Shown: in pieces, positions 5,221 through 13,454 of the stretch
Layout of the letters: every line of letters begins with the position of its first letter
How positions within the stretch are numbered: the stretch's first letter is position 1
DNA from: an uncultured archaeon
GTDB lineage: Archaea > Thermoproteota > Bathyarchaeia > 40CM-2-53-6 > CALIRQ01
Assembly (NCBI GenBank): GCA_938042195.1
Contig: CALIRQ010000007.1
Coordinates: 118,380-182,379, forward strand
Length of the DNA stretch: 64,000 bases
Reading direction: 5' to 3'
The notes under the pieces: model-generated
The model's database searches: none
Told to the model about the DNA's origin: nothing
The model's input: the letters and a program-made list of their open reading frames with translations, nothing else
Made by a program: the position numbers and the translations under genes

Positions 5221-6687
5221 TCAGGGCCTCGATATCTCCTTGAGGAGCGACCCTCTACTGTCGAATATCTCGATCTTCAGGGGCAACTGCCCAGGCGCGG
5301 TATGCGTCGCGCATGCGAGGCATGGGTCGTAGGCCCTGAAGGCCATCTCCACCTCATTGAGCAGCCCCTCCTCGACCGAGCCGGCCCTTATCAGGCTTCG
5401 GGCGGCGTTCCTCACGCTCATGCATATAACCGAGTTGTTATGGGTCGTCGGGACGATAAGATTCAACTCCCTGATCCTGCCCTCCCCATCCGATGTATAG
5501 TCGTGTATCAGGACGCCTCTGGGGGCCTCTACCACGCCAACCCCCCTCCCCCGCGGGCCCGCCGGTATGTTCCTGATGTCGCCGTTAGTTATGCTCGGAT
5601 CCTCCACCAACTCCATAAACCTTTCAGCCGCGTACAGCGTTTCGATCACCCTGGCCCAATGGTATGCAAAGGTTGAATGGCACGGCTTCTCGAGGACCTC
5701 GAACATCTCCTCGAAGGCCCCTTGGGCCCTGGGGGTCGGTATCCTATCGATCACATTGAACCTGGCCAATGGGCCAACCCTATAGATCCCGCTCCCCTCT
5801 CCATCAACGAGGCCCCTCCAGCCCAAGGGCTTCAGGAACGTGAACTTCGAATAGGTCCAGGGCTCGACGTGCTCCGATATATGGTCTAGGTAGTCCTTCG
5901 GTTCGAAGATATCGATGGCCCTTCCATCCGGATCTACCGCCTTGAGCTTCCCTCGGAGCAAGGAGAGGGAATCGCCCTCCCCAACCATGGCGAGGGAGTT
6001 GACCCGGTTGACGTTCTTGTCCTCCAAGATCATTTTGGAGTATTTCTCATCCTTCAATACCGTCTTTTTGAATAAACCCAAGGTGGATTCGGAGAACTCG
6101 AGCAGGTACTTGGCCATCCCCTCGATCCTCGCCCTCTCCTCCTCCGTAATCGGCCTGGAGATGCCACCCGGCAGGCAGAATACGGGATGGGTCGATCTGC
6201 CGCCCACGATCTCTTGTATCTCATGGGCGTATCCAAAGGCCCTCAGGAGCCTCCCCCCAAGCTCTTGGCCAACCTTGTTCAGGAGGCCGACGACGTTCCT
6301 CTCGGCTGGCGGGGCGCTCGGGCCCGGGACGAAATCGGGGAGCGCCAAGAGATAGAAGTGGAGGAGGTGGTCGTGGACGAAGAACGCGGAATAGCCCATC
6401 TCCCTGACCTTCTCGGCCGTCTCGGTCGGCTCCACCCCATATACGGCATCGGCCGCCTTCGCCGAGGCCAGATGGTGGGCCCAAGGGCAGACCCCGCAAA
6501 TCCTAGGAGTTATCCTCGGCATCTCCTCAACCAGCCTCCCCTTGCAGAACTCCTCGAAGCCCCTGAGCTCGAGGATTTGGAAGAACGCATCCCTTACGCC
6601 CCCCTCCTCGTCCAGGAATATGCTTATCTTTGCGTGGCCCTCGAGCCTGCTCGCCGGGTATATCTCGATCTCCCTTCCCGGTCCCAT
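5221..6687 (-). CDS. mvhA: F420-non-reducing hydrogenase large subunit (MvhA type)
   Basis: RLEGHAKISIFLDEEG, RICGVCPWAHHLAS and C-terminal DPCLACATH; start at MGPGREIEIYPASRLEGH; upstream of mvhG/D and hdrABC. Confidence 0.93.
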   Translation of the reverse strand: MGPGREIEIYPASRLEGHAKISIFLDEEGGVRDAFFQILELRGFEEFCKGRLVEEMPRITPRICGVCPWAHHLASAKAADAVYGVEPTETAEKVREMGYSAFFVHDHLLHFYLLALPDFVPGPSAPPAERNVVGLLNKVGQELGGRLLRAFGYAHEIQEIVGGRSTHPVFCLPGGISRPITEEERARIEGMAKYLLEFSESTLGLFKKTVLKDEKYSKMILEDKNVNRVNSLAMVGEGDSLSLLRGKLKAVDPDGRAIDIFEPKDYLDHISEHVEPWTYSKFTFLKPLGWRGLVDGEGSGIYRVGPLARFNVIDRIPTPRAQGAFEEMFEVLEKPCHSTFAYHWARVIETLYAAERFMELVEDPSITNGDIRNIPAGPRGRGVGVVEAPRGVLIHDYTSDGEGRIRELNLIVPTTHNNSVICMSVRNAARSLIRAGSVEEGLLNEVEMAFRAYDPCLACATHTAPGQLPLKIEIFDSRGSLLKEISRP

Positions 6688-6692
6688 CGCCC

Positions 6693-7670
6693 TCAAACCT
6701 CCCATAGCCTCCTGCGCAGGATCGAGGAGGGCAGGCTGAATAGGTAGAAGAGGCCCACGGGATCCACGATGCCATCCATGAGCCTCGCGACATCCTCCTC
6801 GGACATCTTGTCCTCGCCCTCCAGCCCAAGGATCGAAGCTATGGCGCCGAGCATCTTGGCCCCCTGATCCCCGACGCCATCGGGGGGCCCCATGCAACCC
6901 TCGCACCTCATATTGGCCTTGATGCACTTGGCGTCGCAACCCGCCCTAGTGGCCGGGCCCATGCAAAGGATGCCTTGGTCGAGGAGGCACCTTTCTTGAT
7001 CCGCGATCGTTTCATGGGCCCTTACTATCTTGGATATGGATTTCCCCTCCCTCTTCCTCGGGCATTCATCGCAAAGGTTCTTGGCCGGGCCGATGACCGA
7101 TCCCCTGGGCGGAAGGTCGCTCGATAATATGGCTTCGAATGCGTCCTTCACTTGGGAGGTCTGCGGGGGGCACCCCGGTATCGAGTAATCGACCTCCACC
7201 ACTCCGCTCAAGGGCAGGACGGCATCGAGCCTCTTCGGCACCGCCATCCTATACTCGCCCACGAGAGCCTCACCCTGCGGCTTTAATCCCTTTGGATTAT
7301 CGGTACTTGGCGTTCCGTAAACCGTTTCGAGCAATGAGTCCTTGGTTGCGAGGTTCGCCAAGCCCGGCACCCCGCCGAAGCAGGCGCAGGATCCGAAGGC
7401 CACCATCAGCTTGGATTTTCGCCTGAGCAACCTCGCCATCTCCGCGTTCTCCTCGTTCACTATCGCCCCGTGGTAGAGGCAAAGGTCTATCGACCCATTC
7501 GCCATGGCCTCCAAATCCTTGAGCTTCAGATCGGCGGCGGTGGGCCAGAACGCTATGTTCACGGAGCTCAGGACCTTTGGGAGGTATTCCGCCAAATCCA
7601 CTATGGTGATATCGCATCCCGAGCAGGTGGCCCCCAATCCGATCGCCAAATTCAATCTATTCCGCCCCAA
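6693..7670 (-). CDS. mvhG: F420-non-reducing hydrogenase small subunit (MvhG type)
   Basis: GATCSGCDITIVDL, FGSCACFGGVPG, IPGCPP, Cys-rich C-terminus. Confidence 0.93.
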   Translation of the reverse strand: MGRNRLNLAIGLGATCSGCDITIVDLAEYLPKVLSSVNIAFWPTAADLKLKDLEAMANGSIDLCLYHGAIVNEENAEMARLLRRKSKLMVAFGSCACFGGVPGLANLATKDSLLETVYGTPSTDNPKGLKPQGEALVGEYRMAVPKRLDAVLPLSGVVEVDYSIPGCPPQTSQVKDAFEAILSSDLPPRGSVIGPAKNLCDECPRKREGKSISKIVRAHETIADQERCLLDQGILCMGPATRAGCDAKCIKANMRCEGCMGPPDGVGDQGAKMLGAIASILGLEGEDKMSEEDVARLMDGIVDPVGLFYLFSLPSSILRRRLWEV

Positions 7671-8106
7671 CGCGCTTCACCTTTAGTGGGCTTGGCCCCA
7701 GCCTCCTTAGGCGCTCAGTGAAGTCCTTCACTATCTCGGCGAACCTCTGGCCCTCAGATGCCGATGCCCATTCCAATCTGACCCTATCTGGATTGATGCC
7801 CAGTTCCCTCAGGAGCTTCCGAAGCAGGTAATAGCGCCTCCTAGCTTTCAGGTTCCCGCTTTGGTAATGGCAATCGGAGGGGGGGTGGCAGCCGGCTATT
7901 AGGACGCCATCGTAGCCCTCCCTGAGGGCCTCCAGCACGAAGCTCGGCTCGACCCTCCCCGAGCACATGACCCTCACGCATCTTATGTTCGGTGGATACT
8001 CCATCCTGCTCATCCCGGCTAGGTCCGCCGCCGCGTAGGAGCACCAATTGCATAGGAATCCCAAGATCCTCGGCTCGAACCAATCCCCCTTTCGGTTTTC
8101 AATCAA
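7657..8106 (-). CDS. mvhD: MvhD-type iron-sulfur subunit
   Basis: FLCNWCSYAAADLAG, VRVMCSGRVEP, GCHPPSDCHYQ; overlaps mvhG by 14 nt. Confidence 0.93.
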   Translation of the reverse strand: MIENRKGDWFEPRILGFLCNWCSYAAADLAGMSRMEYPPNIRCVRVMCSGRVEPSFVLEALREGYDGVLIAGCHPPSDCHYQSGNLKARRRYYLLRKLLRELGINPDRVRLEWASASEGQRFAEIVKDFTERLRRLGPSPLKVKRVGAE

Positions 8107-8116
8107 TTTCGCTCAC

Positions 8117-10114
8117 CTACCCAGCGGCCGAGCTTATCATCGAGAGGATCTGCTCCTCCGTGAACATCCTAGATCTCACCGCGCCGGATGGGCAGGCGGC
8201 CGAGCAGGTGCCGCAGCCCTTGCAGAGGACCTCGTCCACCTTGGCCACCCTCTTATCTTCCCTCTCCTCCAGCTTCAGGGCCCCATATGGGCAAAGCTTG
8301 ACGCAAACCCCGCAGCCACCGCATCGATCCTCCTCTATCAGGGGGCTTATGGGCTCCACATACACTTGGCCCATGCTGAGCGGTATCAAGGCCCTAGCCG
8401 CGGCGCCGCTGGCTTGGGCGACGGCATCGGGGATGTCCTTCGGGTACTGGGCCGATCCGGCGAGATAGATGCCGTCGACCACCGCATCGTTGGGCCTCAG
8501 CTTCGGGTGGGCCTCCATGAGGAACCCATCCGCGCTGCGGGGTATGCCCAGGATCTTGCTGATGGCATCCGTATCCGCCCTCGGGACCTGCCCGACCGAG
8601 AGTACGACCAAGTCGAAGGAATCCTCCAGCGCGGTGCCCAATAGGGTATCCTCATACCTGAGCACGAGCTCATGGGTCCTCGGATCCTCGCGTATGCTTG
8701 AGACCTTGCCCCTTATGAACTTCACCCCCGCCTCTTGGCTCCTAAGGTAAAATTCCTCATATCCCTTCCCGAAGGCCCTTATATCCATATAGAATATGTA
8801 TACATCGGACTCGGGATTTTGCTCCTTTATTATCAACGAATCCTTTATGGCGTACATGCAACAAACCCTGGAGCAATATAGGTTGAACCTCGCGTCCCTG
8901 GATCCAACGCATTGTATGAAAGCCACCTTCCTCGGCGGTTTGCCGGTCGACGGCCTTAATATGGCGCCGCCGGTCGGGCCCATCGGATCGGTCATGCGCT
9001 CCAACATCGGTCCCGTCACAACGTCTTTGTATCTTCCGAACCCATACTCCTCCAACGGAGTGGGATCGAAGGGATCGTACCCGATGGCCACTATGATGCT
9101 GCCCACCCTCAGCTCCAAGACTTCCTCCTTTTGATCGAAATCTATCGCTTTGGCCTCGCAGACCCTCTCGCAAACCCTACAGATCCCCCTCTTGAGATAG
9201 AGGCAATTCTCTCCATCTATGGAATAGGCCAATGGAACGGCGTTTGGGGACGTTATGTAAATTGCCTTCCTTGAGCTCATCCCGAAATCGACCTCGTTCG
9301 GGATCCTGACCGGGCATTTTTGAGCGCAAAGCCCGCAGGCCGTGCATTTCTCCTCATCGACATATCTTGGCCTCTTCCTTATCTTGACCTTGAAATTCCC
9401 CAGGGATCCCGAGGCCTCAATGAGTTCCGAATTGGTCAACAACTTGATCTTTGGATGTTGCGCCGCGCTGACCATCTTCGGAGTCAATATGCAGGCCGCG
9501 CAATCCATCGTCGGGAATACCTTGGACCATTGCCCCATCCTCCCACCAAGGCTCGGGCCCTTCTCCACTAGGTATACTTGATAGCCGTTATCCGCTACAT
9601 CCAGCGCGGCCTGTATGCCCGCGATCCCCCCGCCTATCACCAGCGCGCTCCTCGTCACCTCCACGGCCTTCGTTTCGAGCGGGATCAACCACCTCGCCTT
9701 GGCAACGGCCATCTTTACTAGGTCGATCGCCTTCTCCGTCGCTCTATCCGGATCGGAGCGATGGACCCAAGAGCATTGCTCCCTTATGTTGGCCATCTCC
9801 AACAGATATGGGTTCAGCCCCGCCTTCCTCAGGGTATCCCTGAAGGTGAGCTCGTGTACCTTCGGGGAGCAAGCCGCAACGACGACCCTATTTATGCCCA
9901 GCTCCATTATATCTTTTGATATCATTTCTTGGCCCACGTCATCGCACATGTGGAGGTACTCCCTCGCCACTTCAACTCCGGGTAGCTTCGAGGCGAAATC
10001 GGCGACCCTCTTGACATCGACCACATCGGCTATATTCTTGCCGCAATGGCATACATATACGCCTATCTTCAAATTTTTCAAATCCGCTCGAACATCATTC
10101 ATCAAAATCACCAA
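8117..10114 (-). CDS. hdrA: CoB-CoM heterodisulfide reductase subunit A (HdrA family)
   Basis: VYVCHCGKNIADVVDV, Rossmann GGGIAGIQAALDVAD, several CxxCxxCxxxCP motifs. Confidence 0.95.
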   Translation of the reverse strand: MVILMNDVRADLKNLKIGVYVCHCGKNIADVVDVKRVADFASKLPGVEVAREYLHMCDDVGQEMISKDIMELGINRVVVAACSPKVHELTFRDTLRKAGLNPYLLEMANIREQCSWVHRSDPDRATEKAIDLVKMAVAKARWLIPLETKAVEVTRSALVIGGGIAGIQAALDVADNGYQVYLVEKGPSLGGRMGQWSKVFPTMDCAACILTPKMVSAAQHPKIKLLTNSELIEASGSLGNFKVKIRKRPRYVDEEKCTACGLCAQKCPVRIPNEVDFGMSSRKAIYITSPNAVPLAYSIDGENCLYLKRGICRVCERVCEAKAIDFDQKEEVLELRVGSIIVAIGYDPFDPTPLEEYGFGRYKDVVTGPMLERMTDPMGPTGGAILRPSTGKPPRKVAFIQCVGSRDARFNLYCSRVCCMYAIKDSLIIKEQNPESDVYIFYMDIRAFGKGYEEFYLRSQEAGVKFIRGKVSSIREDPRTHELVLRYEDTLLGTALEDSFDLVVLSVGQVPRADTDAISKILGIPRSADGFLMEAHPKLRPNDAVVDGIYLAGSAQYPKDIPDAVAQASGAAARALIPLSMGQVYVEPISPLIEEDRCGGCGVCVKLCPYGALKLEEREDKRVAKVDEVLCKGCGTCSAACPSGAVRSRMFTEEQILSMISSAAG

Positions 10115-10118
10115 CCGT

Positions 10119-11009
10119 TCAAGGGAGCTTGCTCAATATTCGATCCATCCCAACGAAATTCATATCCACGCCCAGCTCATGGGGCCCATATCCCATGGCC
10201 AGGCCAAGGGCTTGGACGTAATGGAGGACCGGCATGTCGTAGGGTTGCAAGCCGTATAGCCTTTGCAACTCGATCTGGCCCCTATCGAATTGGAGGTGGC
10301 AGAAGGGGCAGACGTTTAGGATGAAGTCGGCGCCCGCCTCCTTGGCGCTCAGGAGCTTCCGATTCAACATCCTCAATGAAACGTCCAAGACCGCGGAGCG
10401 GACGCCGCCGCCGGCCCCGCAACATGCCATCTTGTCCTCCCATTCCACGCTCTCGGCGCCGAGAGCCTCCGTCAGCTCATCCAAGAAGGTCGGCCTCTCG
10501 GCGCTGCCGACCCATTCCCTCAGGACCTTGGGCTTTATCAAATGGCAACCGTAATGGACCGCGGCCCTCAGGCCCAATGGCTTCGTGACGGCCCTCCTTA
10601 TCCCCTCGGGCGTTACCTCCTTCATCAGGACCTCGGCCAGATGCCTTACGCCAACCGATCCCTTGAAGACCATCCCCACCTCCTTCAATTTCGAATTAAC
10701 GGAATCCCTGAGCGCCCTATCGGCCTTGAGGCTATGGTTGGCATCGGCGAGGGTTCCATAGCAACCGTTGCAGAAGGTCAGCACATCCAAGGCCATATCC
10801 TCGGCGATGCAAAGGTTCCTGGCCGCCACGGCCAACCAAGCCGGGCGGCTGAAGGATTTCACGACCCCAGGGGCCGGACAGCAGGAGGCCCCGTTCATAT
10901 CCGCCAGCTCTATGCCGATCCTCGGCAGGACCTTCCTGGCGGCGGCCTCTATTCCGGGGTACCTATTCGGGATCAAGCACCCGAGGAACAGGGCGTATTT
11001 CCTCCCCAA
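10119..11009 (-). CDS. hdrB: heterodisulfide reductase subunit B (HdrB family)
   Basis: KYALFLGCLIPNRYPGIE, two CCG-type motifs (GCHLIKP...MACCGAGGGVR); start tentatively TTG at 11009 because the longer ORF has a non-coding-like N-terminus. Confidence 0.92.
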   Translation of the reverse strand: MGRKYALFLGCLIPNRYPGIEAAARKVLPRIGIELADMNGASCCPAPGVVKSFSRPAWLAVAARNLCIAEDMALDVLTFCNGCYGTLADANHSLKADRALRDSVNSKLKEVGMVFKGSVGVRHLAEVLMKEVTPEGIRRAVTKPLGLRAAVHYGCHLIKPKVLREWVGSAERPTFLDELTEALGAESVEWEDKMACCGAGGGVRSAVLDVSLRMLNRKLLSAKEAGADFILNVCPFCHLQFDRGQIELQRLYGLQPYDMPVLHYVQALGLAMGYGPHELGVDMNFVGMDRILSKLP

Positions 11010-11023
11010 CTTGAACGCCTCGA

Positions 11024-11746
11024 TTAGGCCGATCCCGCCTTCTGCGGCTGGGCCTTTTCCACCAATTCGAAGAACCCCGTTTCCTTGAGGATATGCTGGA
11101 CGTCGAGGAGGGCCCTCTCGTATTGATGAACGGTCGGCGGCAGCTCGCTGAGGCCCAGCTCCTTGCGCCTCTCCCTCGTCGCCTGATCTATGGGCACCGC
11201 GTGGCCCGTCTTCATCAGGTTCATCGAAACAACTTTGTGGGGATCCAACATCCACCCATTCTCAACGGCCATGTTCCGCATGGTTAGTATAGCGTTCACG
11301 ACGTCTATCTTTCGGGGACACCTCTCGACGCACGTATAGCAAGTTGTACAGAGCCACAGTTCGATGCTCCTCAGGACCTCCTCCTTATACCCCATGGAGG
11401 CCTTCCTGATTATTCTCCTCGAATTGTAGGCAGTGATCCTGCCGGAGGGGCATGAGGCGACGCAGTTCCCGCATTGGATGCACTTATTGATGTTCTCCCC
11501 GCTCGCCCTTATTATCTCCTCGGCGAACTCGGGGGAAGGAGGTGGGGCCTCCTCCACGTGCTCCAAGGGGATTTCGACCTTTGCCTCCTTGACCCCCTTC
11601 GCTTCCTCCTCGGATCTCATCCATTCGCGTATCGCCTCCTCTATGGCCAAGCTCATGCTGCCCTTCTTCATGCCGAACCTCTTGGCCACCCTCTCCCTGA
11701 AGGCCCTTTCCAATGCGTCATCCATCATGACATCAATTCGACCCAT
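11024..11746 (-). CDS. hdrC: heterodisulfide reductase subunit C (HdrC family) with N-terminal ribbon-helix-helix-like extension
   Basis: CIQCGNCVASCPSGR and CTTCYTCVERCPRKI; about 50-residue N-terminal MGRIDVMMDDALERAFRERVAKRFGMKKGSMSLAIEEAIREWM. Confidence 0.92.
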   Translation of the reverse strand: MGRIDVMMDDALERAFRERVAKRFGMKKGSMSLAIEEAIREWMRSEEEAKGVKEAKVEIPLEHVEEAPPPSPEFAEEIIRASGENINKCIQCGNCVASCPSGRITAYNSRRIIRKASMGYKEEVLRSIELWLCTTCYTCVERCPRKIDVVNAILTMRNMAVENGWMLDPHKVVSMNLMKTGHAVPIDQATRERRKELGLSELPPTVHQYERALLDVQHILKETGFFELVEKAQPQKAGSA

Positions 11747-11785
11747 GGGCGATAATTATCTCCACATATGCACATATAAACTTTT
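11747..11785 (-). promoter_or_regulatory. putative hdrC promoter/operator: TATA-like GTTTATATG, tandem CACATAT repeats, palindrome GATAATTATC
   Basis: Palindrome at 11751-11760, 4 nt upstream of the hdrC ATG; CACATAT at 11763-11769 and 11771-11777; TATA-like element about 30 nt from the start codon. Confidence 0.5.
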
Positions 11786-11812
11786 GTGTAGCAAAAATTG
11801 TAGAAGAGAAGC

Positions 11813-11920
11813 TCATAAATTCAACAATTTCCTTACCGAGGCCTCGCATCGCAGCAGATCCTTCCTCAAGCGCTCAAGATCCGCCTCAGAAACCTCCTTC
11901 CCCGAGGAAACCTTGCCCAC
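11813..11920 (-). CDS. possible small protein (35 aa), GTG start
   Basis: Reads MGKVSSGKEVSEADLERLRKDLLRCEASVRKLLNL*; overlaps the 3' end of the upstream ORF. Weak: length only. Confidence 0.25.
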   Translation of the reverse strand: MGKVSSGKEVSEADLERLRKDLLRCEASVRKLLNL

Positions 11921-12110
11921 TATTAAACTCCAAAGCCTCCTCTAGGATCCCGATCAAGCTCGGGTCATCCATCCTTAGGGCCTCGAGGCAACCCTTGATC
12001 GCGTTTATGTCCATTGCGATCTCATATGGGCTCGAATCCCGATATATGGCCTGAGCGAAGCTCCAGCCGAGAAGGAAGGCGCACCTAAGGGACTCCATTC
12101 CGATCGGCAC
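11886..12110 (-). CDS. hypothetical protein
   Basis: 74-aa ORF directly downstream of 12112-12378, plausible archaeal codon usage and composition. Confidence 0.4.
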   Translation of the reverse strand: MPIGMESLRCAFLLGWSFAQAIYRDSSPYEIAMDINAIKGCLEALRMDDPSLIGILEEALEFNSGQGFLGEGGF

Positions 12111-12111
12111 C

Positions 12112-12378
12112 TCATAGATTGAGGATATCGAGCCTTCTGCCCCTCCAATCGGTAATTTCGCAACATACGATCGCGGACTCCGACGCCCCCTTGAGGCCGC
12201 TCACCAATACCTCCTCCCTCTCCCTTATGAGCGCTAGGCCATCGTATACTACGGAAAATTCCCCGGAATCCGCGATCAAGGTGAACAAGGTCCTGAGGCC
12301 GGATGGGGTCCTATAGGTTATGATGGGGCCCTTAACCCCCCCTGAGCCTAATCCCCTCGCTCCCGCGTCCAGGATCAT
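12112..12378 (-). CDS. hypothetical protein
   Basis: 88-aa ORF overlapping the phoU-like stop codon (operon-like). Confidence 0.5.
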   Translation of the reverse strand: MILDAGARGLGSGGVKGPIITYRTPSGLRTLFTLIADSGEFSVVYDGLALIREREEVLVSGLKGASESAIVCCEITDWRGRRLDILNL

Positions 12379-13454
12379 TCAATCCCATCCGCGCCCCTGG
12401 AATCCGGCCCTCGGACCTCTACCTTGCACAACCCATCCCTCTCCACGGCGTTTTCTATGGCCGCCTCGGCCATCGAAATGGATATCTCCCCAATCCTGCG
12501 CAGGGCCAAGACCACCTCCCTCAATTCCCCGAATCCATGGCAAATGTTCTCAAGCGGCAGGTCATCGATTATATCATACGCCTCCCTCGAGCATTCCTCG
12601 AATAGGTTTATGGCCATATTTGCCATCTTGCTATCGTAATTGAACGCGCTCTTCATGACCATATCGCAAATGCCCTTTATCTTATTGTTATATTCCCATA
12701 TCCGAGCCTTGAGCCTCTCGCTAACCCATCCCCCCGAAGTCCCCATCCTCACCACGCCCTCGGCCACCTTATTGGCCCAATCCGCCATCCTCTCCAGGGC
12801 ATTTGAGATGAGGGCCATCGAGAGGATGCTCCCGGAGTCGTATATACCGATCCTTTGGGATATCGCCGGATTCGCTTGGGCTTGATTCAAAAGCCTCAGG
12901 ATCAGGGCATAGATCCTATTGGCCTCCCGCTCCCGCCTCTGGGCCTCCTTGGCCAGCGCGACATCCGAGTCCATCAGGGCCTTGATCGCATCGCTCAGCA
13001 TCGTGGAGAAGAGGGAATATAGGCGATGGATCGCGACGTCCATTGGAAATAGGGCGGGGTTTATGGAGCATTGAAGCACAACGCTCGAGGGCGTTTCCTC
13101 TATGATGCTCAGCCCGATCAATTTGAGCTCGGCCTCGCGGATCGCCTCGAGGCTCCCTCCGTCTATCCTGCTCGACGAACTCACCCTTATGACATCGAAT
13201 CCCTTGACGTAGCCCGCGGTTATCAGCCTCCCGAGGAGGCCCCTATCTCGAAAAAGATCGAGGTTTATGACGAGGGTGCTCGAAACCTCTTTGGTGGCCG
13301 ACTCCGCGCTTTGGAATATCCTGAGGGAGCCATCCCTTTCGGTGGAGAGGAGCACGAGGTCCCCCTTCTTCAGCCCAACCCTTTTGACCCAACTGGCTGG
13401 CAAAGAAACGGTCAGCGTGGAACGCCCAACCAGCTGTATCCTGCGCCTCTCCAT
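12375..13454 (-). CDS. archaeal PhoU-like regulator with N-terminal AbrB/SpoVT domain
   Basis: RRIQLVGRSTLTVSLPASWVKRVGLKKGDLVLL (AbrB-like) followed by helical PhoU-like repeats. Confidence 0.85.
   Translation of the reverse strand: MERRRIQLVGRSTLTVSLPASWVKRVGLKKGDLVLLSTERDGSLRIFQSAESATKEVSSTLVINLDLFRDRGLLGRLITAGYVKGFDVIRVSSSSRIDGGSLEAIREAELKLIGLSIIEETPSSVVLQCSINPALFPMDVAIHRLYSLFSTMLSDAIKALMDSDVALAKEAQRREREANRIYALILRLLNQAQANPAISQRIGIYDSGSILSMALISNALERMADWANKVAEGVVRMGTSGGWVSERLKARIWEYNNKIKGICDMVMKSAFNYDSKMANMAINLFEECSREAYDIIDDLPLENICHGFGELREVVLALRRIGEISISMAEAAIENAVERDGLCKVEVRGPDSRGADGIE

Follow-up and report, generated by a model that had tools for sequence, protein, structure and literature searches.

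An HdrC protein with a predicted N-terminal ribbon-helix-helix domain, encoded at the head of an hdrCBA-mvhDGA operon in Bathyarchaeia

The window comprised 64,000 nt of a contig from GenBank assembly GCA_938042195.1 (Bathyarchaeia). The HdrC loci of four genomes from this class and of one from the phylum were identical to named Bathyarchaeota and Nezhaarchaeota records, which places the window in Bathyarchaeia. It contains an hdrCBA-mvhDGA operon with all genes on the same strand and hdrC as the leading gene (Table 1). The hdrC ORF was read as quoted in the original prediction and was confirmed as HdrC using TIGR03290 (193 bits for residues 86-229; curated cut-off, 160). The [4Fe-4S] motifs are at residues 89-100 and 133-144, and by both the TIGR03290 score and the paired CxxCxxCxxxCP motifs the HdrC domain itself is ordinary. 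The AlphaFold model matched the HdrC chains of 5odc, 5odh, 7bkb, 8rvu, and 8rwn with E-values of 1e-9 to 1e-12 and 36-52% identity. Known HdrC chains of HdrABC-Mvh, -Fdh, and -Elp complexes (5odc, 7bkb, 8rvu) have approximately 175-190 residues and no ribbon-helix-helix (RHH) domain, whereas the protein described here has 240 aa and carries one at its N-terminus, as judged from sequence and models.

Table 1. Features of the hdrC locus, in window coordinates
Feature	Position	Strand	Description
mvhA/vhuA	5221..6939	-	Hydrogenase large subunit
mvhG/vhuG	6693..7670	-	Hydrogenase small subunit
mvhD/vhuD	7657..8106	-	
hdrA	8117..10114	-	HdrA/HdrA2-like flavoprotein, 665 aa
hdrB	10119..11021	-	300 aa; TIGR03288, 414 bits
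hdrC ORF	11024-11746	-	240 aa, ATG start
HdrC domain, residues 86-229	11060..11491	-	Two C-x2-C-x2-C-x3-C-P [4Fe-4S] motifs
Linker, HdrC residues 47-85	11492..11608	-	End of helix B, then Glu/Pro-rich
Predicted RHH domain, HdrC residues 1-46	11609..11746	-	Strand ~3-8, helix A 10-24, G-x-K-K-G turn 25-29, helix B 30-50
hdrC promoter region	11747..11789	-	TATA-like element, tandem repeat, palindrome; candidate operator

The fusion is the sole HdrC in the 1.27-Mb assembly, the remaining matches being weak ones to ferredoxin domains. Homology in the mvhA ORF begins near residue 90, so the true start of that gene is downstream. HdrABC-MvhADG is present, but a search of the genome for methyl-coenzyme M reductase found none. 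Upstream of hdrC, the ORF at 11886-12110 (minus strand) has an apparent one-base frameshift relative to a 98-aa orthologue in a congeneric genome (G023; L089 1138-1434); either a pseudogene or a sequencing error could explain this. A protein combining an N-terminal AbrB/MazE-type domain with a PhoU domain is encoded a short distance upstream of the operon (12375-13454, minus strand).

The first ferredoxin cysteine of HdrC is C89, preceded by 88 residues, which agrees with the original count of about 90. That all of these are extra did not hold. Other HdrC proteins have approximately 20-60 residues (mostly 20-50) before this cysteine, so the genuinely extra part is residues 1 to about 65. It consists of the RHH region (residues 1-46), the end of its second helix, and a Glu/Pro-rich linker, which overlaps the usual HdrC N-terminus from about residue 66.

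Residues 1-52 were searched in 257 genomes of the class and gave matches in 80. Most of the matches examined were stand-alone proteins of 47-57 residues with the same start methionine, aligned gap-free over 46 positions, and the closest independent relative was 54% identical (E 6e-12). In an alignment of 21 members, M1, L12, R17, G29, A34, A38, and W42 were invariant, and the family pattern, which is archaeal, was MGRxxV...GxKKG...EEAxxxW. Pfam RHH_6 was matched by 17 of the 21 members, with E-values reaching 1.7e-7, and HdrC itself scored 24 bits, just below the cut-off of 27. A single-sequence search of the PDB gave a best RHH match of only E 0.8, so a profile was needed; the family profile had its best solved-structure match in the RHH protein 2k6l (E 5.4e-4), and its weak, non-significant matches included the RHH protein 56B and RelB. 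The 2k6l protein (XACb0070) is a bacterial stand-alone protein, whereas the RHH region of HdrC is fused.

The layout of residues 1-46 was in agreement with these matches. The strand pattern R-I-D-V-M-M has alternating hydrophobics (I4, V6, and M8 inward) and is followed by two helices, which were placed by AlphaFold at residues 10-24 and 30-50 with a G-M-K-K-G turn between them and a flexible linker after them. Residues 1-8 were disordered in the AlphaFold monomer; a missing strand is what would be expected if it forms only in the dimer. A separate model of residues 1-52 was of low confidence (pLDDT 65), and five of its six best structural matches were RHH or antitoxin proteins (CopASO, PutA, VapBC, MazE-mt9, and CopG), none with a significant E-value. 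The resemblance of residues 1-46 to RHH proteins is beyond chance, and from sequence comparison they are judged to be a real RHH domain. Sequence, profile, and model thus bear out the earlier suggestion of an RHH domain of the archaeal regulator or antitoxin type (strand, helix, GxKKG, helix), and the predicted structure shows this layout and not a plain helical linker.

Among the matches listed for the 257 genomes of the class and for 398 genomes sampled from the phylum, the RHH-HdrC fusion was found only in this genome (G000) and in G023, which represents another species of the genus; any fused protein would rank among the highest matches in such a search. The third congener (G022) is without HdrC and without a true HdrB. 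No RHH extension was found on HdrC in 80 loci of named genomes. In 111 scanned loci, nearly all with HdrC homologues, no stand-alone RHH gene was found beside hdrC, and the G023 fusion gave the only clear RHH profile match; an unfused RHH gene adjoining hdrC was therefore rejected. Absence of the fusion from the other HdrC proteins examined argues for a lineage-specific event. A widespread HdrC feature was rejected since the listed matches place the fusion in one Bathyarchaeia genus only, and the extension is not broadly conserved with hdrAB-mvhADG, a possibility raised in the original prediction. A viral origin was also rejected, with no relative in three of four viral-contig scans and a single relative in the other.

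The G023 fusion is 90% identical. For codons 1-45 of the two congeners, the Nei-Gojobori method gave dS 0.43, dN 0.047, and dN/dS 0.11, with two species compared and hence a small sample. Elsewhere in HdrC, dN/dS was 0.14 for both the linker and the C-terminus and 0.01 in the Fe-S part; the linker is the fastest-evolving part at the protein level (dN 0.09). All RHH replacements were conservative (I4M, M8I, R14K, R23K, and R44K). Judged from these codon comparisons, the extension is translated and under purifying selection in both species, which speaks against a near-neutral passenger, that is, a regulator gene fused by chance and tolerated without an important role. Such a passenger would fit the occurrence in one genus only, and we regard it as unlikely. 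An artefact, either a mis-called start or an assembly chimaera, is scarcely credible. GTG and TTG codons do lie in frame within the linker, but G023 has no start codon at the position of the GTG at codon 64, and a conserved promoter directly precedes the ATG at codon 1. Both kinds of artefact were ruled out by the second species and by the in-frame purifying selection across the junction; the extension is conserved in the congener, contrary to what a mis-called start would give.

Other matches to the RHH domain of HdrC are VapB-like antitoxins with a PIN-type gene behind them (PIN assigned by eye). One such pair lies in the same genome (C1; L003 1489-2182) and is conserved in G023 (L108); its VapB-like RHH antitoxin is a paralogue of the HdrC extension. 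Archaeal VapB-type antitoxins share with HdrC a homologous RHH domain, the G-x-(K/G)-(K/R)-G turn, and the conserved A34, E37, A38, and W42. That the RHH domain of HdrC is an antitoxin-like module neutralising a VapC/PIN toxin was considered on the strength of these relatives and is highly improbable. The presumed toxin-binding C-terminal tail of the antitoxins (DPVxAIxGxL...ELQHE) is absent from HdrC, and no PIN ORF or other toxin gene adjoins hdrC. The antitoxin role was rejected for both reasons. The stand-alone RHH_6-like proteins of 47-57 aa in Bathyarchaeia are the closest relatives, with the same start and up to 54% identity, and differ in being unfused.

Roughly 31 nt ahead of the ATG, the hdrC promoter region contains the TATA-like element TTTATATG. 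It is overlapped by a tandem ATATGTG-N-ATATGTG repeat, with copies eight bases apart, that is kept in G023, and the palindrome GATAATTATC follows the two. The exact tandem has a single occurrence genome-wide, and a comparable direct repeat arose in approximately 2% of shuffled 60-mers; the tandem is a weak hint of a candidate operator. Identity to G023 in the promoter was 40/45, not above that of the neighbouring sequence, and exceptional promoter conservation was not found. On the protein side, position 28 is basic and followed by G29 in all 37 RHH family members, and most have R or K at position 3. In HdrC, the residues presumed to face DNA (positions 3, 5, and 7) are R3, D5, and M7. R3 fits the polar or basic pattern of DNA contacts; D5 and M7 do not. 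Position 7 is often D, E, or V in the small-RHH family, and D at position 5 occurs in 3 of the 37 members, namely both HdrC fusions and L094, which is their closest relative.

Because the RHH fold is obligately dimeric, dimerisation of HdrC via its N-terminus is what we most safely infer. Our preferred reading, held tentatively and at somewhat less than even confidence, is that the fusion both dimerises HdrC and binds DNA as an autoregulator of its own operon. A tiny, complete RHH regulator gene would have been fused in frame to hdrC in an ancestor shared by two or more species of Bathyarchaeia. The intertwined beta strand of the RHH domain would pair two HdrC chains, the flexible linker would let the Fe-S part take its place in HdrABC-Mvh, and the dimer would bind the promoter of its own operon. 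In a PutA-like manner, it would repress the operon whenever HdrC is overabundant or unassembled. This reading is favoured by the RHH homology and layout, K28/G29, the first-gene position, the ATATGTG tandem at the TATA box, and selection on the domain in the second species. The rarity of D5 in the family and the non-polar M7 count against DNA binding. Autoregulation is further weakened by a promoter no more conserved than its neighbours, by the frequency of such repeats in shuffled sequence, and by the lack of an unfused RHH gene adjoining hdrC in the other HdrC loci scanned; fusion to a large complex may also hinder promoter binding.

Dimerisation alone is nearly as likely as autoregulation with dimerisation. 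The domain would then solely dimerise or tether, linking two HdrC chains within (HdrABC)2 or between complexes or stabilising unassembled HdrC, without binding DNA. Obligate dimerisation of the fold, the predicted flexible linker, and the residues D5 and M7 at presumed DNA-contact positions, which speak against base contacts, are all in keeping with this. The dimer-of-heterohexamers architecture of HdrABC complexes (PMC12350162) fits a dimerising role, but the known (HdrABC)2 dimerises without such a domain, and the phosphate-anchor-like K27/K28/G29 motif is kept.

The preferred autoregulatory reading is modelled on the trifunctional PutA of enterobacteria, which likewise has an N-terminal RHH domain on a redox enzyme. 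There the RHH domain is the dimerising module, and PutA is a self-repressing DNA-binding enzyme; grafting the E. coli PutA RHH domain onto a bifunctional PutA gave the latter the oligomeric state and the DNA-binding activity of the trifunctional enzyme (PMC5293562). The enzyme parts of PutA and HdrC are without homology, and PutA is a flavoenzyme acting alone, whereas HdrC is one Fe-S subunit within a large complex. For PutA, both DNA binding and redox switching were demonstrated; for RHH-HdrC they are proposed by analogy. RHH-HdrC is not a member of the PutA family and would work like PutA if it is regulatory at all. By the same analogy, the link between redox state and regulation or assembly suggested in the original prediction is plausible, despite the atypical D5 and M7. 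That an electron-bifurcating Hdr subunit serves as a redox- or assembly-sensing repressor of its own hydrogenase operon, a PutA-type archaeal trigger enzyme, is less likely than not.

A full-text search of the open-access literature found no paper naming HdrC and ribbon-helix-helix together. Both halves are of known kinds, and their combination is undescribed in the literature searched. Should the domain bind DNA, it would directly couple expression of the genes for an electron-bifurcating complex to the state of that complex, in a mostly uncultured archaeal class of whose regulation little is known. A domain that only dimerises HdrC would likewise be novel, as a way of arranging HdrABC complexes.

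The stand-alone RHH proteins of 47-57 aa form a large uncharacterised family across Bathyarchaeia (L094, L098, L100, and L144-L171), in which GGKKGDLS and GMKKGNIS mark at least two subgroups. Some of their genes adjoin a ParB-like gene or transposase-like genes. In four loci (L099 1892-2691, L186 46-830, L115, and L167), an RHH domain is fused to or lies beside a small domain with a GEIVASGESL motif, near an ORF for a retropepsin-like aspartic protease (families assigned by eye), and these loci are a possible archaeal toxin-antitoxin-like module.
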